Source: Anaerolineae bacterium (lineage in GTDB: Bacteria > Chloroflexota > Anaerolineae > SpSt-600). From it: a stretch of 36,667 nt of DNA. The stretch spans positions 1 through 36,667 of the forward strand of contig JANXAG010000017.1 of the NCBI GenBank assembly GCA_025062375.1, given 5' to 3'. Of the stretch, positions 5,931 to 30,113 are shown piece by piece. The notes beneath the pieces were generated by a model that saw only the letters and a program-made list of their open reading frames with translations, did no database searches and was not told where the DNA came from. Every line of letters starts with the position of its first letter. Within the stretch, counting starts at the first letter, position 1. The translations under genes were made by a program, and so were the position numbers.

Positions 5931-7791
5931 AGGCCTCCCTCCGTTCCATTTCTGCCAAGATTTTTGACACCTGTTCAATCGCTATCCTCTGCTTTCTGTA
6001 AAGGTCCGATTCGCTTATGGCCAGACGCTCCGCTATTTCCTTGGGGCGCTTGCCCTGAAGGTAGCGCATTTCCAGTATGTTATAAAGCACCCATTCTATG
6101 GAGCCTGCTGGCTGCCTGCCTTCGGGCTTGAGGGCTTCTATGGCCTCTTTCAGGACAACTCTCAGGGCTTTTACAGGATTACCGTCGTGTTCCTTGAGGG
6201 CTTTCTCCACCACTTTGAGCTTGAGGAGTGGGCTCTGGGCAAGCTTCGGGCCCACCCAGTAATTGCTCAGAGCTTCTTTAACCCACAACTGGTAATCGGG
6301 GCCGGCCAGCTCCAGGAGGGCTTCAGTTCCTCCGGCAGGCATAGTGTAAAGGGAGGCTTGCCACTGCCTTATGCTTTCCACATCAGGAATTATATGCCGA
6401 AGAGCCTCAAAGACCTTCTGCTGGAGGATTCTGTCCTCAAGAACCCTGGCAATCCTCTGCACCAGGGTTTCTAAGACCTCCAGCTCTTCAGATGAGAACT
6501 CAGCTTCAGAAGAAGGAGCTTCTATCACCAGCAGGCCAACTTCTTCCCCATTAACTTCAAGGGGTATTACCCAGAAGCCGATATTGTAAACGTTAAACCC
6601 TTCCATCAAGCTGATGGGAGAAGCTTTTTCCCGGTAGTTCGGAAGGGCTTGCAGAGCTTCGTTGATTCTGTAAAGGGGCCCGCAGCGAGCTTCTATAGAT
6701 TTGTTCCGTAAAGCTACAAATCCCCACCGAACTTTCAGCAGCTCGCACAAAGCCACCAGAATGCTTTCCAAAAATTGCTGAAGGTCAGTGGTGGTAAGCA
6801 ATCTGCTGTCCAGCTCCTGGATCCAGACAACCTCATCCCGATCGCGGCTGTATATTAAGCGATCAATGAAGGGTTTGGCCTTGTTTATGAGGATCTGGAG
6901 CAGGACCACCAGGATCACCACAGCGAAAATTGTTGCGGTTTCCCCTGGAAGGCCCAGGAAACTATCAACTTCCGAGAGGAGCAGTATCACCCCTATGACG
7001 CATATCCCCACGAAAGGCCCCCGCAGGAGGTAGTGGATAAGCTGGTGCTTTATAATCCGGTCAGGGGCCAGGGCACCATAATAGGCCACAACATAAGCCA
7101 TCACTATGAGCATAAGAGCTACTATGACATTACCCACCACCGAAAGGAAAAGGACCAGAGGAGGAGAAAGAAGCGCAGCAGTCCTCGAAAGGAGAAGGTA
7201 AGGGAAAACCCCTATGCCTGGTCCGACAAAGGCCCCCAGAAGGTAAGAAAGGCGCCGGCGAGTTGTAGAGGTGAAAGCTTTCTGCCTTGCCTTGTAGAGA
7301 ATGAAAAGGCTTGCCACGGAAGAAATCACAAAGAAAGCGGTGAAAATGGGGAAAATAGGGCCTGGGGTAAGGTGAACGAGCCCTCCGTGATACTTTCCAT
7401 CGTAGACCAGGAGGTCGCTCCTTAGAGCCAGCAGACAGAAAAGCAGGCTCATAAGGTATAGAAGCACCGAAATCCACCTCCGCAGGGAAGAGAAAGAACC
7501 TGAAGCCCTGAGAATGGCGCTGGCAAAATGGAAATAGGCCGCAGGAATGAAGGAAATGCCCAGCCATTGGAAACGCAACCAGGAAAAAGCTGTGGTCAGA
7601 TCCTCAACCTTAGGGATTACCAGGTCGCCGGAGTATACGGCTATGACGAAAGCCATCATAGCGCAGAAGGCCCTGGCCACAGGGTTCCGTAGATTTGTAG
7701 AAGCCACATAGGCCAGGAGAGAAAAGGCTACAAGCACAATCCCCGCTGAAAGGATAAAATTGATCTGCGTTAAAAAGTTCATTCCAGGCAT
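5905..7791 (-). CDS. membrane regulator: 7TM + GAF + C-terminal HTH
   Basis: 628 residues. The first ~300 residues hold about seven to nine hydrophobic spans, resembling the 7TM N-terminus found on some histidine kinases. A GAF-like sensor follows (about 325-465). The last 70 residues include a helix-turn-helix segment resembling sigma region 4 or LuxR (MRYLQGKRPKEIAERLAISE). There is no His-kinase H-box, ATP-binding G-box, cyclase or receiver domain. I infer a one-component membrane-tethered transcription regulator. The gene starts 3 bases after the GH3-like gene and overlaps the S1 gene at its 3' end. No ligand or target can be deduced from sequence. Confidence 0.75.
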   Translation of the reverse strand: MPGMNFLTQINFILSAGIVLVAFSLLAYVASTNLRNPVARAFCAMMAFVIAVYSGDLVIPKVEDLTTAFSWLRFQWLGISFIPAAYFHFASAILRASGSFSSLRRWISVLLYLMSLLFCLLALRSDLLVYDGKYHGGLVHLTPGPIFPIFTAFFVISSVASLFILYKARQKAFTSTTRRRLSYLLGAFVGPGIGVFPYLLLSRTAALLSPPLVLFLSVVGNVIVALMLIVMAYVVAYYGALAPDRIIKHQLIHYLLRGPFVGICVIGVILLLSEVDSFLGLPGETATIFAVVILVVLLQILINKAKPFIDRLIYSRDRDEVVWIQELDSRLLTTTDLQQFLESILVALCELLKVRWGFVALRNKSIEARCGPLYRINEALQALPNYREKASPISLMEGFNVYNIGFWVIPLEVNGEEVGLLVIEAPSSEAEFSSEELEVLETLVQRIARVLEDRILQQKVFEALRHIIPDVESIRQWQASLYTMPAGGTEALLELAGPDYQLWVKEALSNYWVGPKLAQSPLLKLKVVEKALKEHDGNPVKALRVVLKEAIEALKPEGRQPAGSIEWVLYNILEMRYLQGKRPKEIAERLAISESDLYRKQRIAIEQVSKILAEMERREAYGNGKLHG

Positions 7792-7794
7792 CCT

Positions 7795-10464
7795 TTACCT
7801 CTCCCGCGGTGAGAGAAGCCAGAAAAGGCTCACAGTAAAAGCCAGGCCTGCGCTAATAAAAGGCAACCAGCTTACGATGGTTTCATCCCCTACGGTCACG
7901 GCCAGGATAGCGCAGGCAATATACCCCACCAGCCCGATTATAACCACCAAGAGAAACCTTCTGACTTTTTCCTTGAGCCTTGCTTCCCGGACCTGGGTCA
8001 GAATTCCCGCCAGGAGGATGGCCAGAAAGGTTCCCCCGAAATGGAGTGGCGTGGGGCCTGAACCCAATGGAGCTAACGGCACCGGGGTCGGGGAAGGAAA
8101 GGGTGTAGGAGGAAGAGTGGGGGTGGGGGAAAGGGTGGGAGTGGGCGTCGGCGATGGAACCACAGTGGAGAGAATGGCTGGCTGGTTTTCCTGAACTGTT
8201 ACTACAATCTTGGTGGATCTGGTAGCCGAAAGGCTCTGGGCCGTTATCTCCAGCTGGCCTGTCCGCTCCAGAGTAAGGGAAATTTCGGCTACACCGTTTA
8301 CAGTGGTGACCTCTTTGCGGGGAAGCTCCAGGGATTCCGCTGGGTAGAAAAGCCTGAAGATGACAGGGGTGCCATCCGGTACTGGGTGGCCGTTGCGATC
8401 AAGGATGACACTGGTTCGGATTTTGAAGGAGCTTCCTGGCCTCAGGTCCAGAGGCTGCGGCGTTCCCTCCTTTGGCACCCCCACTACCTCCAGTTCAATG
8501 ACCTGATCCGGATCAGGCTCTGTCTGCACTATCAAATCGTAATTCACTCCGGGGACGCTCACAGGTGGAGCTCCATGGGGGGCAAATTCTTGGAAGAGAG
8601 CTTTCACGGTGTATTCCACAAAGTAAGGTAGAGGGCTGTAAGCTGCGTAGTAAGCAGTGAGCTTGCTTATCTCGGTGGTATCAAGGTAATAGGGAGCACC
8701 GTAACTTATGGCGATCACTTTCTTATCCCTGAGGAGTTCAGGGCGACCCCGCAGGAGCTCCTTGAAAGCGTCAGAAGCCGGGTAACGTTTGGGGTCCAGA
8801 TCCTGCAGGGCGAAGATAACCCAGGTGGCCCTGGAGAAAAGCTCTTCAAGCTCTTTATCCTCTTTCGGGGCCAGAAGAAAGCTCTTAAGGCGAACAAAAC
8901 TGAAGCTGTGAACCTTCTCGGGATCTATCTGTCCTGTAGCTTTAGGTCCATAAAGCTTCAGCATCATGTTCTCCAAAGCATCAACCGGGAGCGTCTGCTC
9001 GGGAAGGCAATCCTGACAATCCTTTAGAGTTCGGGTGTCGGAGAAGATAAGGATGTAGTCTTTGTAGAGGGGTGGGGAGGGGATCCGGCCTGCGAGTTCT
9101 TCCCGCTCCGGATAGATGAGGGTCAGAGAGCGCATAGCTAAAGGAAGCAATTTTTCGGTAAAGGAGCCCGTTACCTCCAGGCTTACAGAAGGGGTAAGGA
9201 CTTCATGGAGGGAGAAGCTGGGGTAAAGGCGCAGTTTGGCTTTCAGGATGCGGCGGCAGGATTCATCCACCCTGGCTCTGAAGGCTGGGTCGCTGGCATA
9301 TTTTTCCCGGAAAAAGAGGATGGTCTGGATTATGTTTTCGTAGTGTTCCTCCCAGGAACCGGAGAGGGAAAACTCGGAAAGGAAAAGGATGTCATTCCCG
9401 GCCAGAAAAGCATCCTGAGCTATACGCTTGAAGGGGAAGGAAGAGAGCTGGGGATCGTAGTAGCGCTTGATGGGCATGGCTCCCAGGGATTCAGCGATGA
9501 GAATTCCTCCCCTCTCGCGCCAGGAAGCAAACTCAGGCATGGAAAGGATGGCTCCAAGGCCCTGGGGATGAAGGCTCAGGGGCGGGGTGATATCCCGGAT
9601 GTTCCCCTGAAAACCCCTGTATCGGATGTGAGAACTCATCAGAGCATCAGCGGCCCCTTCTTCCTGAGCCTGGATAACCGCCAGGAAAGGTGCAAGTTCT
9701 ATCTTACGCAATTCTTGAACCGACTTCTGGATGGTAGCCACCTCTTCTTCAGGTGGGCGATCGCTTCCGCCGCGGCCGGGGAAGTGTTTGGCCACCGTTA
9801 TTACCCGGCCTTTGCTTCCGACATGAACTCCTTTAATGTAGGCCTTACCCAATTTCCCAACCCAGTATGGGTCTCCGCCGAAGGCTCTGGTTCCTATTCC
9901 GGACTTTATCGCTACCTCGGGGCGATCAACCACATCCAAGGAAGGGCCGAAGAGCATGTTTACGCCCACAGCCGCCAACTCCGCCCCCACTATAGAGCCC
10001 ACAAGCTCCGCCTGGCCCTCATCCCAAGTGGCTCCTATGGCCATGTAATTGGGCACAGGGGTAAACCCTGAGCGAAGCTGGGGAAAATCCCCATCGTGGT
10101 TGATCCCGATAAAGAGGGGGATTGAGGTGGTGCCCGAAAGAGGTTCACTCATGGCGAGGGATTGGAGACTTCGGGTAAGGGAAAGGACTTGAGCTGGAGT
10201 TTCTGAACCGTTGGTGAAGTTCCTGTTCTGCGCCGAAATTACTACACCCCCTATCCTGAACTCTCGAATGAGCCTGCCAATATAAGAATCGGGGGAAATG
10301 TCGGAGCCGTGGAAGGTTACCAGGAAAAGTTGTCCGACCCTTTCCTCCGGGGCCATTTTGCTCAGGATGGCTTCCACCTGGTCGTTGCTGGCTGAAGAGG
10401 AGGACTGCACCCCCAGGAAATAAAGAAAAAGCAGGGCAAGCAGAAAAATCTTTGTCCTGGTCAT
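7795..10464 (-). CDS. secreted, membrane-anchored GH3-like protein with altered active site
   Basis: About 889 residues. A signal peptide (LLALLFLYFLGVQ) is followed by a glycoside hydrolase family 3 barrel (about 28-400) with NagZ-like landmarks: GQLFLVTF, INHDGDFPQL, VAKHFPGRGG, DALMSSHIRYRG. A second alpha/beta domain and an Ig-like domain (about 640-760) follow, then a Pro/Thr-rich stalk (SPTPTPTLSPTPTLPPTP) and two terminal membrane spans. Normal NagZ enzymes have KHFPGHG followed by a D-S-H acid/base motif and an Asp nucleophile in a DDL motif. Here these read KHFPGRG, DRPP and AESL, so normal beta-N-acetylglucosaminidase activity is doubtful. A TTG at 10470 is an alternative start, closer to the AAAGG site. 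The gene overlaps the preceding small membrane gene by a few bases. Confidence 0.8.
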   Translation of the reverse strand: MTRTKIFLLALLFLYFLGVQSSSSASNDQVEAILSKMAPEERVGQLFLVTFHGSDISPDSYIGRLIREFRIGGVVISAQNRNFTNGSETPAQVLSLTRSLQSLAMSEPLSGTTSIPLFIGINHDGDFPQLRSGFTPVPNYMAIGATWDEGQAELVGSIVGAELAAVGVNMLFGPSLDVVDRPEVAIKSGIGTRAFGGDPYWVGKLGKAYIKGVHVGSKGRVITVAKHFPGRGGSDRPPEEEVATIQKSVQELRKIELAPFLAVIQAQEEGAADALMSSHIRYRGFQGNIRDITPPLSLHPQGLGAILSMPEFASWRERGGILIAESLGAMPIKRYYDPQLSSFPFKRIAQDAFLAGNDILFLSEFSLSGSWEEHYENIIQTILFFREKYASDPAFRARVDESCRRILKAKLRLYPSFSLHEVLTPSVSLEVTGSFTEKLLPLAMRSLTLIYPEREELAGRIPSPPLYKDYILIFSDTRTLKDCQDCLPEQTLPVDALENMMLKLYGPKATGQIDPEKVHSFSFVRLKSFLLAPKEDKELEELFSRATWVIFALQDLDPKRYPASDAFKELLRGRPELLRDKKVIAISYGAPYYLDTTEISKLTAYYAAYSPLPYFVEYTVKALFQEFAPHGAPPVSVPGVNYDLIVQTEPDPDQVIELEVVGVPKEGTPQPLDLRPGSSFKIRTSVILDRNGHPVPDGTPVIFRLFYPAESLELPRKEVTTVNGVAEISLTLERTGQLEITAQSLSATRSTKIVVTVQENQPAILSTVVPSPTPTPTLSPTPTLPPTPFPSPTPVPLAPLGSGPTPLHFGGTFLAILLAGILTQVREARLKEKVRRFLLVVIIGLVGYIACAILAVTVGDETIVSWLPFISAGLAFTVSLFWLLSPRER

Positions 10465-15488: not shown

Positions 15489-15512
15489 ATATTACCGATG
15501 AGGAGGTGTGCC

Positions 15513-15677
15513 ATGGCCGAGTGCCCTGAATGCGGAGCTATCATTGAGCTCCCATCCGGAACAGAGGTGGGAGAAATCATCCCTTGCCCCGATTGTGGAG
15601 TGGAGCTGGAAGTCACTAACCTTAACCCCCCAACCCTGGAACTCGCCCCACAAGTGGAAGAGGACTGGGGGGAGTAA
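15513..15677 (+). CDS. lysW: amino-group carrier protein LysW
   Basis: 54 residues. LysW carries the alpha-amino group of 2-aminoadipate or glutamate on its C-terminal Glu, protecting it while the side chain is processed. The sequence has a zinc-binding CPECG ... CPDCG pair (Cys at 4, 7, 25, 28) and the invariant C-terminal EDWGE. AGGAGG lies 6 bases before the ATG. It is the first structural gene after the attenuator and 10 bases before lysX. Confidence 0.95.
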
Positions 15678-15687
15678 GGAGGTGAAG

Positions 15688-16539
15688 ATGAGAATCGGGG
15701 TGCTGGTCTCCCGAATTCGGGTGGAGGAAAAACTCCTCTTCCAGGCCTTGGAGAGGGCCCGAATTCAATACGAGAAAATTGATGTGGAAAATGTCCCCTT
15801 CCTCCTCACCGACAGCAAATTCTCAGGCTTTGATGCTGTGCTGATCCGCTGCGTGAGCCATACCCAGGCCTTTTACGCTTCCAGGGTCCTGGAGAGCCAG
15901 GGTGTGAAGGTTATAAACTCCCACCAGGTAATACACGTGTGTGGGGATAAGCTCCTAACCTCCCTCGCCCTTCTGGAGCATGGTGTCCCCACCCTTCACA
16001 CCCTGGTGGCCTTTGCCCCCGAAACAGCCCTTCAAGCTATTGAAACCATGGGTTATCCCGTAGTGCTGAAGCCCCTCCATGGCTCCTGGGGAAGGCTCCT
16101 GGCTAAAGTGAACGACAGGGACTCAGCCGAAGCTATCCTGGAGCACAAGAAAACCCTGGGAGGATATGCCCACTCGGTTTTCTATATCCAGGAATACGTG
16201 GAAAAACCGGGCAGAGACATAAGGGCTTTTGTGGTTGGAGGGGAGACAATCGCTGCCATCTACCGAAATTCTCCCCACTGGATTACTAATACTGCAAGGG
16301 GGGCAAGGGCCTCTTTTTGTCCCATCACCCCAGAACTTGACCATATAGCCAGAGCCGCTGCCGAAGCGGTAGGAGGGGGGATCCTGGCTGTGGATATCCT
16401 GGAGAGCCCCGATGGAAGACTCCTGGTGAGCGAGGTTAACCATACTCCGGAATTCCGCAACAGCATAGAACCAACAGGGGTGGATATTCCCGGCAGGATG
16501 ATCGATTACGTGAGGGAAGTGGCAGGAGGGAAGCTATGA
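15688..16539 (+). CDS. lysX: LysW-amino acid ligase, first copy (LysX-like)
   Basis: 283 residues, an ATP-grasp (RimK-like) ligase that joins the alpha-amino group of the substrate to the C-terminal Glu of LysW. Visible features are the ATP-grasp core [14 protein letters not shown], the substrate loop [11 protein letters not shown] and the metal site [11 protein letters not shown] followed by [10 protein letters not shown]. The segment [15 protein letters not shown] closely follows what I remember of the 2-aminoadipate-specific Thermus LysX. I therefore favour aminoadipate, but glutamate is possible. The ATG at 15688 has AAGGAGGTGA upstream; the longer frame from 15508 is only read-through of the lysW region in another frame. 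Its stop overlaps the ATG of the next copy (ATGA). Confidence 0.88.
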
Positions 16540-17377
16540 GCGAGGGAAGATTGGGGTTCTTTTCTCCCGGGTGAGGCTTGAAGAAAAACTTATCTTCCAA
16601 GCCCTCGCCCAGCGGAAAATCCCCTTTGTGAAACTGGATATACGGGACTTAGCTTTTGACCTTGAAAAAGGGCTGGCCTTCGAGCGAGTTCTCATCCGGT
16701 GCATAAGCCACCGGGAAGCCCTTTATGGTTCCCGACTTCTGGAAAGCCAGGGGGCAAAAGTGGTCAATTCCTATAAAGTTATCCACCTGGCGGGGGATAA
16801 ATTACTGACATCCCAAACCCTCCTGGATAAAGGGGTGCCTACTCTACCGGTAGTGCTGGCCTTTTCTCCCCAGGCTGCTCTGGAAGCACTGGAGAAAATA
16901 GGCTACCCAGCCGTAATAAAGCCCGTTAATGGTTCCTGGGGCAGGCTCGTTGCCCGAGCTGACACCCCTGAAGCAGCCCGCACTATCCTTGAGCACCGCT
17001 TTTATATGAGCGAGCACTTCGGTTCTGTCTTCTACATCCAGCCTTACGTGGAAAAACCCGGACGGGACATCCGGGTGATGGTCGTGGGAGACGAAGTAGT
17101 CTATGCCGTTTACCGCTACTCATCCCACTGGATAACCAACACCGCCCGTGGTGCCTATACTGCGCCATGCCCTCTGACTCCGGAGCTGGAAGAACTGAGC
17201 CTGAAGGCAGCCAGGGCTATCGGTGGTGGAATTTTAGCTCTGGATATTTTTGAAACCCCCGATGGGCTCGTGGTTAATGAGGTGAACCACACCCCGGAGT
17301 TCCACGGAGCCCTGAAGGCGGTAGAGGCTGACATTCCAGGAAAAATCGTGGACTATTTCCTGCAAGGAGGGGGATAA
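16536..17377 (+). CDS. argX: LysW-amino acid ligase, second copy (ArgX-like), frameshift at start
   Basis: About 280 residues if the frame is restored. This second ATP-grasp ligase is homologous to its neighbour throughout ([33 protein letters not shown]). The substrate-side segment differs: [15 protein letters not shown] instead of [15 protein letters not shown], which may mean glutamate specificity (ArgX-type). The natural start appears to be ATG 16536, which overlaps the previous stop as ATGA and has AGGAGGG five bases upstream. That frame ends at 16572 after 12 codons, whereas the homologous text ([15 protein letters not shown]) is one base out. Inserting one A near 16548 repairs it exactly. 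The only ordinary in-frame start is GTG at 16571, which would remove the first beta strand. Confidence 0.8.
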
Positions 17378-22810: not shown

Positions 22811-24001
22811 ATGAAAAAGATAGTCTTAGCTTACTCGGGCGGTCTTGACACTTCTGTTTCCATCCGCTGGTTGAGGGAAAAATACGATGCTGAAGTAATT
22901 GCCCTGACCGTGGACATAGGTCAGGAAAAGGACATTGAAGCCATCCGCCGCAAGGCGCTCGCTATCGGAGCCGTAAAAGCTATAACGGTAGACGCCAGGG
23001 AGGAGTTCATAAAGGATTTCGTCTTCCCGGCCCTGAAAGCCGGCGCCATATACGAAGGCGATTACCTCTTATCTACAGCCCTGGCCCGTCCTCTTATCGT
23101 AAAGCACCTGGTAAAAGTGGCCAGGGAAGAAGGAGCCACAGCTGTAGCCCATGGTTGCACCGGCAAAGGCAATGACCAGGTCCGATTTGATGTCTCCACA
23201 GGTGCCCTCGCCCCTGATCTGGAAGTGATCGCCCCGGTGCGAGAATGGGGGATGACCAGGGAGGAAGAGATCGAATACGCCCATAAACATGGGATACCCG
23301 TCCCGGCAACCCTCAGCAGCCCCTACAGCATAGATGCTAATCTCTGGGGCCGGAGCATAGAATGCGGGGTTCTGGAAGACCCCTGGCAAGAGCCCCCGGA
23401 AGAGGTCTTTGAATGGACCAAGCCCGTTGAAGCTGCCCCTGCCAAACCTTATTATCTCCAGATAGACTTTGAAGAAGGAATCCCTGTCGCTCTGGACGGA
23501 GAGAAACTTTCGGGGGTTGAACTCGTGAGCCGCCTCAACCAGATAGCGGGGGAGTACGGAGTTGGCCGCATAGACCACATTGAGAATAGGCTTGTGGGGA
23601 TAAAATCTCGTGAGGTCTACGAAGCCCCCGCCGCTGTGGTCCTCTTTGAAGCCCACCGCAAGCTGGAAAAGATGACCTTAACCAAAGAGGTGCTGCGGTT
23701 CAATGCCCAGGTGGCCGCAACCTATGCCGACCTGGTCTACAATGGGCTCTGGTTCTCACCCCTGAAAAAAGCCCTGGACGCTTATGTGGATGCCGTCCAA
23801 AAGGTGGTCACGGGCACAGTAAGGGTAAAGCTGGAAAAAGGGGTAGCACGCGTGGTGGGAGTTCGTTCCCCCTACTCCCTTTACGACTATAACCTTGCCA
23901 CTTACGACAAAGCTGATGCCTTTGACCACAGGGCTGCGGTGGGCTTCATAAAACTGTGGGGACTTCCCCTCCGGGTAAAGGCGAGGGTGCAGGGACTTTA
24001 A
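22811..24001 (+). CDS. argG: argininosuccinate synthase
   Basis: 396 residues. It joins citrulline and aspartate with ATP. The pyrophosphatase loop AYSGGLDTSVSIRWL opens the protein; other family segments are HGCTGKGNDQVRF, SIDANLWGRSIECG and YNLATYDKADAFDH. It is normal in length, starts two bases after argH with GGAGG upstream, and is the last gene of the operon. argF (ornithine carbamoyltransferase) is not in the window. Its end overlaps the end of the opposing rplY gene by four bases. Confidence 0.97.
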   Translation: MKKIVLAYSGGLDTSVSIRWLREKYDAEVIALTVDIGQEKDIEAIRRKALAIGAVKAITVDAREEFIKDFVFPALKAGAIYEGDYLLSTALARPLIVKHLVKVAREEGATAVAHGCTGKGNDQVRFDVSTGALAPDLEVIAPVREWGMTREEEIEYAHKHGIPVPATLSSPYSIDANLWGRSIECGVLEDPWQEPPEEVFEWTKPVEAAPAKPYYLQIDFEEGIPVALDGEKLSGVELVSRLNQIAGEYGVGRIDHIENRLVGIKSREVYEAPAAVVLFEAHRKLEKMTLTKEVLRFNAQVAATYADLVYNGLWFSPLKKALDAYVDAVQKVVTGTVRVKLEKGVARVVGVRSPYSLYDYNLATYDKADAFDHRAAVGFIKLWGLPLRVKARVQGL

Positions 24002-25445: not shown

Positions 25446-25769
25446 ATGGTAGAAGTCCGACTCTATGGAAAGCTGCGACGTTTCGGGCCTGAACCACGCG
25501 GCGACCGGGAGACGATAGTCTATCTGGAAGTTGAACCAGGAGAAACCGTGGAAAGCGTGCTGACGCGGCTTAGCATCCCTCAGGAAGAGATCGCCCACAT
25601 CTTCCTGAACGGCAAGCTCCTGACCACCCGCAACTCCATGGCCCCCTGGCTCCGTTACCAGCGGGCGCGGGATAATGTCCCTACCTGTGAGCCTAACCTG
25701 GACCATCCCCTCCGCGACGGCGACCGACTGGGTATCTTCGGCCGGGATATGGCACTACTGGTGGTATAG
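25446..25769 (+). CDS. MoaD/ThiS-like ubiquitin-fold protein without C-terminal GG
   Basis: 107 residues. The start MVEVRLYGKLRRFGPE, then ETVESVLTRLSIPQEEIAHI, FLNGKLL and a late PLRDGDRLGIFG are typical of the beta-grasp MoaD/ThiS family. Functional sulfur carriers end in Gly-Gly; this one ends GRDMALLVV, so it cannot form the usual thiocarboxylate. It has GGAGG before the ATG. It may be a scaffold or subunit linked to neighbouring redox genes, or it may have been retained for another role. Confidence 0.7.
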   Translation: MVEVRLYGKLRRFGPEPRGDRETIVYLEVEPGETVESVLTRLSIPQEEIAHIFLNGKLLTTRNSMAPWLRYQRARDNVPTCEPNLDHPLRDGDRLGIFGRDMALLVV

Positions 25770-26633: not shown

Positions 26634-27056
26634 ATGGAGAGGGAAGAACGCATTTGGCTCGGAGTGCTACTGGGCATCTTTCTCATCGTTAATGCCATCA
26701 CCCTTTCCCCCCTTGTGCCCTGGCAACAGTGGATGCTCTGGACGCGCCCTACTCCAAAGCAGCAGATCCGCGTGGAATTCGCCGATTACGAAATCCGCCT
26801 TCCGCCCCAGGGCATCCAGTTGAAAGTCGGGGAATTTGTAGAGTTCATCGCCACCTCCCGCGATGTAACCTATGGTTTTGGTGTCTTCCGTAAGGACGGC
26901 CGGATGGTTTTCCAGATGCAAGTGGTTCCGGGATATGAAAACCGCCTCCTCTGGCGATTTGACGAGCCAGGTTTATACGATATCCGCTCCACAGAATACT
27001 CCGGACCCCGCCATCCGGAGATGTTCATCCCCAACGCAATTAATGTAGCACCGTAA
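26634..27056 (+). CDS. cytochrome c oxidase subunit II-like protein lacking the CuA ligands
   Basis: 140 residues: one N-terminal membrane span (about 8-29) and a cupredoxin domain facing outward. Aligned by eye with ba3-type subunit II, the expected CuA segments VIHGF and ICNQYCGLGHQNMF read here VTYGF (Tyr80) and RSTEYSGPRHPEMF (Ser119, Ser123, His127, Met130). The first His and both Cys ligands are therefore replaced, while the second His and the Met remain and spacing is preserved. It should not bind the usual binuclear CuA. This resembles quinol-linked enzymes, whose subunit II has lost CuA. It sits directly before subunit I (15 bases). Confidence 0.8.
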   Translation: MEREERIWLGVLLGIFLIVNAITLSPLVPWQQWMLWTRPTPKQQIRVEFADYEIRLPPQGIQLKVGEFVEFIATSRDVTYGFGVFRKDGRMVFQMQVVPGYENRLLWRFDEPGLYDIRSTEYSGPRHPEMFIPNAINVAP

Positions 27057-27071
27057 AGAAGGAGGTGCCTT

Positions 27072-28688
27072 ATGGGCTGGAACGAGAAATGGACCCTGCG
27101 CTTTGCCGTTGTCGCCCTTATTTTCCTGGCGATGACCGGGTTTGAGGGGGTCCTTATGCGCACTTACTTATCCGCCCCTCAGGCGTTGGAAGGCTTTGAG
27201 CGAGCCTTCAGCGTCATACGCGTAATTCCCCGAGAACTAACTCCAGCTGATTATTTTTACAGCATGATGACTGTTCACCCTATCGTCGGCGTTTATGGCT
27301 TCGCCTACATGGCAGTGATGGGTGCCTTCTATTTTCTGGTCCCCTACCTCCTCAAAAAGGAAATCCGCCACAGGAAATTGGTCCCCCTAAACTTTTGGCT
27401 CCAGACGATAGGAGTCCTCACCTGCTGGGCCTCCGGCTTCTTCCTCCTTTTCAACTCCCTCTACACCTTATACTGGCCCCTGCCTGTTTCCTTCGATCGA
27501 GTGCCACTGTCAGGGACGATTGCCTTCACCGTTGGTGCGGCAATGATTATGGTTAACATCCTGCTTTTCTCCTTCAACATCTTCAGCACAGTCCTTTCCA
27601 AGAGCAATCCCCAGTCTTACACCTTCGGACAGTTCTTCAGGGCTGCGTTCGGCATCTCGCGCCTCATGCGTCTCTTGGGCAAAGAAGATAAAACCGCTGT
27701 CCCTCTGGATTACAATGGCCTTCCCGTTTTCATCGTCGCGGTAGCACGAGGCTCTATTGATACTGTCATCAACGCTGTGGTCCTTCTCACCGCTGGAGCG
27801 TTGATTCTGATTTATGGGCTGGCGACCCTCTTCGGCCATCCCCTCAACCCGATGGCTGTGGACGCCTTGGTCTACAAGAATTGGTTCTGGTGGGGATTGG
27901 ACATGGTGGCCGACGGCAACGTCCTCATTTATACCGCCGGGGTTTGGTACCTGCTCATCCCATTGCTGGTGGGCCGGCAGCTTTACGGCGAACCAGTGGT
28001 GCGGACGGTCATCATGGCGGACCTGCTCATATCTTTGGGAGTTTGGAGCCACCACCTCCTGGGCGACCGGGTGCAGCCACTGGTGATGCGGCTCCTTTCA
28101 GGTCAGTTCATCACCTGGGGCGAATTTATCACCATGGGATTGACCATCTTTGCCTCGCTTATGACCATCTGGAAGGCCCAACCGGTGAAAATTACACCGC
28201 CGCTCCTGTTCATTCTGGGCTCCATTTTTGGCTTCATTATGGGCGGCACGGCAGGGTTAATACAGGCTAATGTAGGGCTTAATTTAGTGCTCCACAACAC
28301 CCAGTGGGTTATTATGACTCATGCCCACACAATGCTGCTGACAGGCCTTAGCAACCTGCTGTTTGCCGTCGTCTACGCGCTGGTGCCAATGCTCACCGGC
28401 AAGGAGATCCGTAGCCGGGCTCTCACTCTGGCCCACTTCTGGTTCTGGACTGCCGGTTCAGTGCTGATGACCTACGTTATGGGGCTGGCCGGCGCACAGG
28501 GGATGCTGCGGCGGATGCTTTACCCGCAACCGAATATCTACCAGCCTTTCCTGGACATAGCTTGGGTGGGGGGTATCCTGATGACCTTGGGCTTCCTGGC
28601 CTTCCTGATTAACATTATCGCCACCATTGGTTGGGATAATCTCCTGAGGCTGGTAGTAGAACGGCGCCCTGCGGCCTCCGCGGCATAA
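27072..28688 (+). CDS. heme-copper oxidase/NO reductase superfamily subunit I, unusual active site
   Basis: 538 residues with about 12-14 membrane helices. Low-spin heme ligands are visible at His69 (MMTVHPIVG) and His419. The proximal ligand is His417 (MTHAHTMLL) and two metal-B ligands are His327-His328 (VWSHHLL). The third metal-B ligand and the Tyr/Glu four residues later normally read HPEVY (oxidases) or HLWVE (cNOR). Here the segment is WFWWGLDMVADGN, with Asp277 and Asp281 at those positions. The pattern is unlike O2 reductases with the Tyr cross-link and points to a divergent NO reductase-type subfamily. GGAGG precedes the ATG. It probably takes electrons from quinol or a partner protein through the next membrane subunit. 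Confidence 0.82.
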   Translation: MGWNEKWTLRFAVVALIFLAMTGFEGVLMRTYLSAPQALEGFERAFSVIRVIPRELTPADYFYSMMTVHPIVGVYGFAYMAVMGAFYFLVPYLLKKEIRHRKLVPLNFWLQTIGVLTCWASGFFLLFNSLYTLYWPLPVSFDRVPLSGTIAFTVGAAMIMVNILLFSFNIFSTVLSKSNPQSYTFGQFFRAAFGISRLMRLLGKEDKTAVPLDYNGLPVFIVAVARGSIDTVINAVVLLTAGALILIYGLATLFGHPLNPMAVDALVYKNWFWWGLDMVADGNVLIYTAGVWYLLIPLLVGRQLYGEPVVRTVIMADLLISLGVWSHHLLGDRVQPLVMRLLSGQFITWGEFITMGLTIFASLMTIWKAQPVKITPPLLFILGSIFGFIMGGTAGLIQANVGLNLVLHNTQWVIMTHAHTMLLTGLSNLLFAVVYALVPMLTGKEIRSRALTLAHFWFWTAGSVLMTYVMGLAGAQGMLRRMLYPQPNIYQPFLDIAWVGGILMTLGFLAFLINIIATIGWDNLLRLVVERRPAASAA

Positions 28689-28784
28689 AAACAGCTTAGG
28701 GAAAAAAGCAAGGGGCGTCCGGCCCTCACACCTACTGTCTGGCAATCGTTCTGCATGGGGCCCAACCGAATGGAGGTGACAAAT

Positions 28785-30113
28785 ATGCGTCGAACGAGCT
28801 TTCTATCCACCACTGAATCTTTACTGTGGACCGTCACCGTGTGGGAGGCGTCACTGGTCATCCTGCTTGGAACCCTCTCGCCCACCGGACCACTGGCCTG
28901 GCTGGGAATGGCAACCCGCTTGGGGCTGGACGAGGCAGGACGGATAGGACGCATCGTGATGCTCTACCACTCCCTGGCCATCCCCTTTGTTGCCGCATTG
29001 GTCTACCTTATTCTGGATGCACTCCCTTTTGATGAAATCATCCCGCGCCTGGTCCGCCCCACCATCACAGCGGGCTACTTCCTCACCAGCACTGGTGGGC
29101 TCAGTTTCGCCTACCTGCGGGCCGGCTGGATCGCCCATGGGGTTTTCCTGGTGGGCCTGAGCCTGACCTTCTACGCTGGCGCTATCCTCTGGTGGGGTCT
29201 TTCTCCCTGGCGCGCTCCGGACGGGCGAAGTCTGGAACGCTGGGCCTTCTGGCTCATGGCCCTTTATTCCCTTATATCCGCCGCCATAGGAGGCGCAGTC
29301 GGAGCTCACTTCGGCCACGGTTTTAAAGCCTTCCTGGCTGAAGACCTCTTGAGGGTCGAGCATGACCTTTTCCAGCGGGCTATCATCGCCCACCTCCACA
29401 TCATGCTTACCCTTATAGACGTGGCCCTTCTTCTCCTGGTGGCCCATCGTGTGGGCATTACGGGCTTAGCTTATAAGATCACCATTCCCCTCATCATCGC
29501 CGGGACCACTATCACCACTTTTGCTACCTGGAGCGTGATATTTGTAGGAGGAGTCGCTCACAGAATAATCACTGTGGGCGCAGTAATTTTGCTAACAGGG
29601 GCCGCCATCGTCGCCCTCTACGGGATGCGAAGTTTAATTCGAGAGCGGCCAGATCGCCCAGCTCTGAAAGCCCTATTGAGTGACCCAGTTAGCTTTGGGA
29701 TGCTCTTCCAGCTGCTTTTTGTCAACCTGGTGGTGACGGCGCCTGGCATCTGGGTAGCTGTTAACCTGGAGGCGATTCGGGCGGGAGATCTGGCCTGGGA
29801 GCGGACTTTCGCTGTAGGTCACTGGCATGTCCTGGCTACGCTATCGGCGACGATAGGACTTTTATTGGTTGTGGACCGGCTGGGGGCACGAGGGTGGCTC
29901 AGGCAGGCTGTCGGTTGGGGAGTGTTAGCGGGTTCTATCCTGGCCTTTTCAGCCGCTCAGCTTTACATGTTTCGTCAACCTGGAACTGCACCGGCGCAAA
30001 CTACCATCCTGGTCATAGATGCTGGCATTGGCCTTTTCTTCCTGGCTCTGGGTCTGTGGGCTGCAGCCACAGGTCCATCAGTCATGAGGAGGCCAGAAGG
30101 AAGACGAGATTAA
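28785..30113 (+). CDS. multi-span membrane protein with two His-x-His motifs (oxidase-associated)
   Basis: 443 residues with about 12 hydrophobic helices. Conserved-looking His residues lie in or near the spans: MLYHSLAIPF, AHFGHGF, QRAIIAHLHIMLTLID, GVAHRIITVG and FAVGHWHVLATLSA. The last and third of these resemble the helix X motif of subunit I next door (THAHTMLLTG), so the protein may bind hemes and could be a distant, degenerate heme-copper relative or a b-type cytochrome subunit. The start is ATG 28785, with GGAGGTGAC upstream; an earlier in-frame ATG at 28755 lacks a site. It probably forms one complex with the two genes before it. I cannot give a family name with confidence. Confidence 0.7.
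   Translation: MRRTSFLSTTESLLWTVTVWEASLVILLGTLSPTGPLAWLGMATRLGLDEAGRIGRIVMLYHSLAIPFVAALVYLILDALPFDEIIPRLVRPTITAGYFLTSTGGLSFAYLRAGWIAHGVFLVGLSLTFYAGAILWWGLSPWRAPDGRSLERWAFWLMALYSLISAAIGGAVGAHFGHGFKAFLAEDLLRVEHDLFQRAIIAHLHIMLTLIDVALLLLVAHRVGITGLAYKITIPLIIAGTTITTFATWSVIFVGGVAHRIITVGAVILLTGAAIVALYGMRSLIRERPDRPALKALLSDPVSFGMLFQLLFVNLVVTAPGIWVAVNLEAIRAGDLAWERTFAVGHWHVLATLSATIGLLLVVDRLGARGWLRQAVGWGVLAGSILAFSAAQLYMFRQPGTAPAQTTILVIDAGIGLFFLALGLWAAATGPSVMRRPEGRRD

Follow-up and report, generated by a model that had tools for sequence, protein, structure and literature searches.

Which enzyme is encoded by a heme-copper subunit I gene with aspartate in place of a metal-B histidine, and aspartate again where oxidases and NO reductases carry tyrosine or glutamate? 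The question is raised by a locus of the window, as the whole analysed stretch is called here (36,667 nucleotides of contig JANXAG010000017.1, from an Anaerolineae bacterium of the Chloroflexota). In the original prediction, the motif GLDMVADG was read as carrying Asp277 at the position of the metal-B His and Asp281 at that of the cross-linked Tyr of oxidases, or of the Glu of cNOR, and the protein was tentatively called gNOR-type. The features of the locus are reported in Table 1.

Table 1. Genes and diagnostic codons of the locus, with their positions in the window
Feature	Positions	Strand	Evidence
ThiS/MoaD-like small protein	25446-25769	+	Ub-Mut7C 25 bits, cut-off 23
Subunit II, 140 aa, one TM helix and cupredoxin domain without CuA	26634-27056	+	CoxB TIGR02866 E 3e-7, below cut-off
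S119-T-E-Y-S123, place of CuA C-x3-C, both Cys now Ser	26988-27002	+	
Subunit I, gNOR-type heme-copper protein, 538 aa, ATG start	27072-28688	+	exact ORF
H69 codon, helix II low-spin heme ligand (by homology)	27276-27278	+	
D277 codon, place of helix VI metal-B His	27900-27902	+	alignment
D281 codon, place of oxidase Tyr, cNOR Glu or eNOR Gln	27912-27914	+	alignment
H327-H328 codons, helix VII metal-B ligands (by homology)	28050-28055	+	
H417-A-H419 codons, helix X ligands of high-spin and low-spin hemes (by homology)	28320-28328	+	
TM12, 452-aa membrane protein, predicted heme-copper subunit I fold	28755-30113	+	VIA, Foldseek on model

The metal site of subunit I

The subunit I protein matches the Pfam COX1 family (PF00115) with 214.3 bits, the cut-off being 34.8; NCBIfam oxidase models match it only under their cut-offs. 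Its AF2 model (pTM 0.86) features the 12-helix fold of heme-copper subunits I, as indicated by a VIA match to 8iuf_C1 (Z 40.0, 463 residues, 2.9 Å).

The register around the two aspartates was evaluated by phmmer: on PDB chain 4n4y (Thermus ba3), WGLDMVAD is aligned without gaps to WTVHPIVY, so that D277 takes the place of the CuB His and D281 that of the Tyr. The observation of the original prediction is confirmed. When a plant COX1 is aligned by phmmer, D277 falls again on the His, with a slip afterwards; when Chloroflexi references are aligned by MAFFT, the block slips by one, and D277 is found on the Gly preceding the His. In none of these registers, by either program, is a His located at the helix VI metal-B place. 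The spacing of D-x3-D is the same as that of H-x3-Y, of H-x3-Q in eNOR and of H-x3-E in cNOR. No Tyr is present in subunit I at the cross-link place of A- and B-type enzymes, nor among the conserved helix VII residues ahead of the HH pair, where the C-type Tyr is presumably located.

Reference controls show H-x3-Q in eight eNOR-like proteins, H-x3-Y in five B-type ones and H-x3-E in NorB-like loci; the HLWVE motif of the last agrees with the Glu that had been expected in cNOR at the place of Asp281. For three of the eight eNOR-like controls (L131, L132, L133), a nirS match is present on the same stretch. A further COX1-family protein (L145, G038:C24) features SYGALTGSW in helix VI, without a metal-B His, and keeps the HH of helix VII.

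Conservation and phylogeny of the aspartate pair

When genome_contigs was scanned with the window protein, 206 relatives were identified, and the analysis covers the best 80. The peptide patterns used to choose these 80 loci include YKNWFWWG, which stops just short of D277; genomes found by whole-protein similarity were therefore also inspected. The subunit I alignment contains 82 rows, with the window included twice.

Among the best 80 of 206, both positions are Asp in 79 loci, while the remaining one, L017, begins past the region: thus the helix VI His, needed for a three-His metal B, is replaced by D277 in 79 out of 79 covered loci. H327, H328, H417 and H419 are His in 80 of the same 80 loci, and H69 in 78, the two gaps corresponding to L016 and L017, which start later; the ligands listed in the original prediction are found where they were placed, and are conserved across the aligned loci. 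By whole-protein similarity, the protein was found in 10 of 60 Chloroflexi genomes, and GLDMVADG is present in all 10 (the window and L083-L091), which were identified by similarity alone. A chance or misread motif may be discarded, as both Asp are present in every covered relative. The rule of three histidines on metal B has, within the heme-copper superfamily, gNOR as a recognised exception.

Identity to the window protein, for the best 80 of 206, ranges from 63 to 86% in Chloroflexi, and is near 40% in Bacteroidota, Campylobacterota (Sulfurimonas, Sulfuricurvum, Aliarcobacter), Ignavibacteria and a few others, as named in the record titles. In all these groups the D/D pair of this set is invariant, even where identity falls to about 40%. 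In the tree, the D/D rows form a single clade (SH-aLRT 99), apart from the eNOR-like rows of Chloroflexi and from B-type and A-type rows; the Chloroflexi D/D branch is separate from the one containing Bacteroidota and Campylobacterota. Because of long branches, the deeper branching was left unused.

A cupredoxin subunit without CuA

The gene for subunit II ends 15 nt before the start of subunit I. Where CuA proteins have CNEYCG, STEYSG is found: S119 is present in 74 out of 74 subunit II rows and S123 in 73 out of 74, and the C-x3-C-x3-H pattern is absent from all 74. The pattern is kept in nine Chloroflexi stretches, used as controls. Of the 80 related loci (best 80 of 206), 73 contain a subunit II gene; in the other seven, subunit I lies within about 320 nt of the contig end. 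Since both CuA cysteines of subunit II are serines, quinol is, judging from the sequence, the likely electron donor of the enzyme encoded by 26634-28688. Loss of CuA is also seen in bo3-type quinol oxidases.

Assignment to the gNOR family

In the literature, gNOR is described as a quinone-oxidising enzyme, norGH (PMC8906906), composed of two subunits, the second being a cupredoxin rather than a c-heme protein (PMC8756737). Its active-site residue is D, where other families have Y, E, N or Q, and its carriers are Sulfurimonas, Sulfurovum and Persephonella, as reported in PMC8756737 (Table A4). It is a proposed family, not included among the biochemically characterised ones in PMC11388526. The papers disagree on energy conservation: H+ translocation is indicated in PMC6349771, versus the absence of a channel in PMC8756737 and a non-electrogenic reaction in PMC8906906.

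The locus corresponds to this description: D281 is the Asp found at the Y/E/N/Q place, and 26634-28688 encodes two subunits, the second being a cupredoxin. A D/D member is present in a genome recorded as Sulfurimonas sp. MAG 17 (L058), and in 4 out of 4 genomes of that genus. The other heme-copper motifs read in Campylobacterota, among the 21 genomes reached through loci, are cbb3-like (6 loci) or cNOR-like (4 loci), all with His. Homologues from Sulfurimonas, a genus whose published gNORs carry Asp (PMC8756737), place the protein in gNOR. The tentative call of the original prediction is thus supported, at the level of sequence, by the residue rule, by the Sulfurimonas carriers and by the architecture, with its two subunits, cupredoxin and missing CuA. 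One more feature is the His-to-Asp change on metal B, which we take to be part of the published gNOR definition and which corresponds to D277; a search of the open-licence literature found no text on such a ligand in gNOR.

It appears likely, on these grounds, that 26634-27056 and 27072-28688 encode a two-subunit NO reductase of the gNOR type, fed by quinol and probably devoted to NO removal; the pair is a Chloroflexi addition to gNOR, a known family of predicted NO reductases. On the other hand, a metal site with two acidic residues differs from that of cNOR/qNOR, which have only the Glu, and from that of eNOR, which has Gln, and the gNOR literature consulted does not describe a test of gNOR. 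This may be seen as an indication of a catalytically changed relative, acting on another nitrogen oxide, as an NO dismutase or as an NO sensor, and not as a reductase. Yet every locus that extends far enough (best 80 of 206) retains the remaining ligands together with subunit II, as expected of a working, electron-fed reductase; such a change is improbable.

Proposed function and genome context

Starting from the gene pair, its conserved aspartates and histidines, the lost CuA, the missing Tyr and the genome context, we infer the metal, the quinol donor, NO as the substrate and a role in detoxification. Electrons would enter from quinol, since the cupredoxin subunit has no CuA, and would pass from the low-spin heme (H69/H419) to the high-spin one (H417), opposite which a metal would be coordinated by H327, H328 and D277. 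D281, in place of the cNOR Glu, may act as a proton relay or as a second acidic ligand. The acidic site would probably contain non-heme iron rather than copper, and there two NO molecules would be coupled to form N2O.

In the window's genome, subunit I is the only COX1 protein found, and nirS, nirK, nrfA and nosZ were not found. An apparent NosZ match (26766-27023) falls on the cupredoxin part of subunit II, and denitrification to N2 is unsupported in this organism, as no full nirS, nirK or nosZ was found. Because none of these genes, nor nrfA, is present in full among the sequences of the genome, removal of NO made elsewhere would be more likely than denitrification. The ten D/D Chloroflexi genomes behave similarly, when compared with the other 50: full-length NirS is found in 0 of 10 vs 4 of 50, G049 having just one fragment of 86 positions at the end of a contig; NirK above cut-off in 0 of 10 vs 9 of 50; full-length NrfA in 0 of 10 vs 15 of 50; NosZ above cut-off in 0 of 10 vs 12 of 50, an association which is suggestive only and can be due to chance. 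An NO-removing, quinol-fed reductase seems, from gene content, the explanation that best fits these facts.

The distribution of terminal oxidases bears on a different substrate, O2. The D/D protein is the sole PF00115 protein above cut-off in 9 out of 10 D/D Chloroflexi genomes, and in 10 of the 21 D/D genomes reached through loci. Neither a second PF00115 protein nor a bd oxidase match is found in G010, G013 and G019; G030 shows, a 32-bit fragment apart, no further oxidase of either kind. Since G010, G013, G019 and G030 show no other full oxidase (PF00115 or bd), there is room for O2 reduction: the enzyme might be an O2 reductase with an acidic metal site and no cross-linked Tyr, acting as the sole heme-copper terminal oxidase of these bacteria. 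However, a full bd oxidase is present in 6 of the 10 D/D Chloroflexi genomes, the window's included (vs 13 of the 50 others), a cbb3-like gene accompanies the D/D gene in each of six Campylobacterota genomes (G349-G354), and no Tyr occupies either of the known cross-link positions. To our knowledge, every characterised O2-reducing heme-copper enzyme has the cross-linked Tyr. O2 reduction is accordingly improbable, and NO reduction is the preferred reading.

Upstream of subunit II, a gene for an Rrf2-family regulator is found in 31 of the 80 loci (best 80 of 206), which counts in favour of the gNOR reading. The one protein examined, from L021, is above the Rrf2 superfamily cut-off; SUF/IscR models score higher on it than NsrR, which leaves a role in NO sensing unsupported. 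The ThiS/MoaD-like gene of the window is syntenic in relatives: it is located upstream in L002, L003 and L005, and in G001 and G560 it has NDH2-like and TM12 genes nearby. In 9 of the 80 loci (best 80 of 206), a gene for a protein of about 200 aa directly follows gNOR subunit I; one of them is L019 (7670-8269), whose copy has no NCBIfam match. Elsewhere in the window, two consecutive LysX/RimK ATP-grasp ligases (15508-17377, + strand) and an argininosuccinate synthase (22811-24001) are found, presumably a cluster for carrier-protein lysine/arginine biosynthesis.

A third gene with a predicted heme-copper fold

The TM12 gene starts 66 nt past the end of subunit I. Its product has no match in Pfam or NCBIfam, and PF00115 is not among the matches of any of 16 members of its family, with E up to 1. 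As a sequence relative of known subunits I, TM12 had to be rejected: in profile-profile comparison by hhalign, probabilities are 10.6% or below, and the best one, to eNOR, is obtained in a shifted register. As hhalign gave nothing useful, the link to the heme-copper superfamily rests on the predicted fold. The model, built from five sequences (mean pLDDT 66.9, pTM 0.72), shows a subunit I fold when compared by VIA with CcoN (Z 25.9, 385 aligned residues, 3.8 Å), and a similar match to cNOR (Z 24.4); all 50 rows, among the matches listed by the VIA search, belong to the heme-copper superfamily. Foldseek reports a probability of 1.00 and a TM of 0.62, the first unrelated row being at TM 0.26.

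Seven His are invariant in the 51 aligned rows, a few of which are second copies of one gene: H72, H128, H213, H215, H269, H356 and H358. In the same 51 rows, columns 245-268 feature no conserved His, so that the helix VII pair is missing. Within the class, members of the TM12 family occur in 65 out of 396 genomes; no match was found on plasmids, and no description of a TM12-like protein in the open-licence literature.

TM12 is found behind gNOR in 4 of the 80 loci (L001, L002, L003, L017; best 80 of 206), directly as in the window, and has a predicted fold and conserved His suitable for two hemes. It might thus be the third subunit of a complex, a di-heme, quinol-oxidising protein feeding gNOR. 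Such a role is unlikely: TM12 accompanies gNOR in just those four of the 80 loci, is located on stretches without gNOR genes in G001 and G560, and is found on a different contig from gNOR in G003, G029 and G041. A constant gNOR subunit may be discarded for the same reason, TM12 occurring also without gNOR or away from it.

More tentatively than the gNOR assignment, TM12 may be regarded as the founder of an unrecognised branch with a heme-copper fold and no helix VII His pair, possibly an independent terminal reductase that acts on NO or O2. Its heme positions would be like those of cbb3 and cNOR, and H213, H215 and H269 would be available to bind either a second metal, at a remodelled site, or another heme of the bis-His kind. 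Such a reductase may be fed through an NDH2-like enzyme and quinol.

Gene neighbourhoods in close relatives also speak for the reading of gNOR as an NO-removing, quinol-fed reductase. A DUF438-hemerythrin-PAS gene lies beside TM12 in the close relatives G001, G385, G560 and G407; where they can be aligned, its products share about 52-53% identity with the copy of L125. In G385 and G407, gNOR is also present with the two genes. The run includes an NDH2-like flavoprotein gene in G001, G385 (on the contig of L001), G560 and L002; "NDH2-like" is our own reading, the best model being the pyridine nucleotide-disulfide oxidoreductase family, below cut-off. In G001, which belongs to the window's genus, and in G560, TM12 is located behind the NDH2-like gene and by the DUF438-hemerythrin-PAS one, with no gNOR genes in the stretch; as G001 is 82% complete, its gNOR may be missing by assembly. 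In L125 (G069, 6712-9350, - strand), flavodiiron and DUF438-hemerythrin-PAS genes are found directly upstream of a TM12 relative; for the flavodiiron gene, the best NCBIfam model is NO reductase flavorubredoxin, below cut-off. If TM12 is a new branch, it may belong to an NO-stress gene set, either together with gNOR or in its place.

Alternatively, the new branch may be paired, in other Chloroflexi, with heme O synthase-like genes. Ten Chloroflexi loci (L181-L190) feature a run composed of X213, TM12, an FGE-domain protein, a heme O synthase-like UbiA, an X213-like protein and X228: TM12 and the FGE-domain protein are fixed in 10 out of 10, the heme O synthase-like gene is present in 9 out of 10, and in individual loci individual members escaped the queries used. 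X213 and X228 fall in no Pfam or NCBIfam family. In G003, G041 and G382, the TM12 gene precedes a UbiA-type gene. TM12 is the most novel element of the locus, and an unusual neighbour worth a study of its own: if a heme enzyme, it would enlarge the heme-copper superfamily with a member missed by current profiles.

Comparison with known heme-copper enzymes

The combination of a metal site with two His and one Asp, an acidic partner in place of Tyr or Glu, and no CuA, all exactly conserved, makes gNOR chemistry directly testable. The D/D gene is often the only heme-copper enzyme in genomes where no NO-forming nitrite reductase was found, and annotation based on COX1 tends to label its product as a cytochrome c oxidase.

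With B-type ba3 oxidases, the window enzyme has in common a gapless local alignment at the site and the two-subunit design; these oxidases, however, have HPLVY or HPIVY, with His and Tyr, and CuA, all three missing from the window enzyme. A B-type oxygen reductase is ruled out by the absence of the helix VI His and Tyr and by the separate clade. cNOR and qNOR have, as the window enzyme, an acidic residue four positions past the helix VI ligand, but keep the His (HLWVE), and belong to another clade, with other subunits; the lack of a helix VI His followed by Glu at +4, together with the separate clade, rules out this identity as well. eNOR shares the heme-copper fold, a cupredoxin subunit II and the occurrence in Chloroflexi. 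It keeps the metal-B His, with Gln at +4 (HPAQQ or HGAQQ in local rows), where the window enzyme has Asp; in the eNOR-like stretches examined, subunit II retains CuA, in contrast to that of the window enzyme. The Asp found instead of the conserved Gln, and again the separate clade, rule out eNOR.

gNOR (norGH, from Sulfurimonas, Sulfurovum, Persephonella and Ca. Methylomirabilis) shares with the window enzyme the active-site Asp, the two subunits with a cupredoxin as subunit II, and Sulfurimonas as a carrier; its description as quinone-oxidising fits a subunit II without CuA. The window member differs from it by its Chloroflexi branch, and by the TM12 gene located behind.
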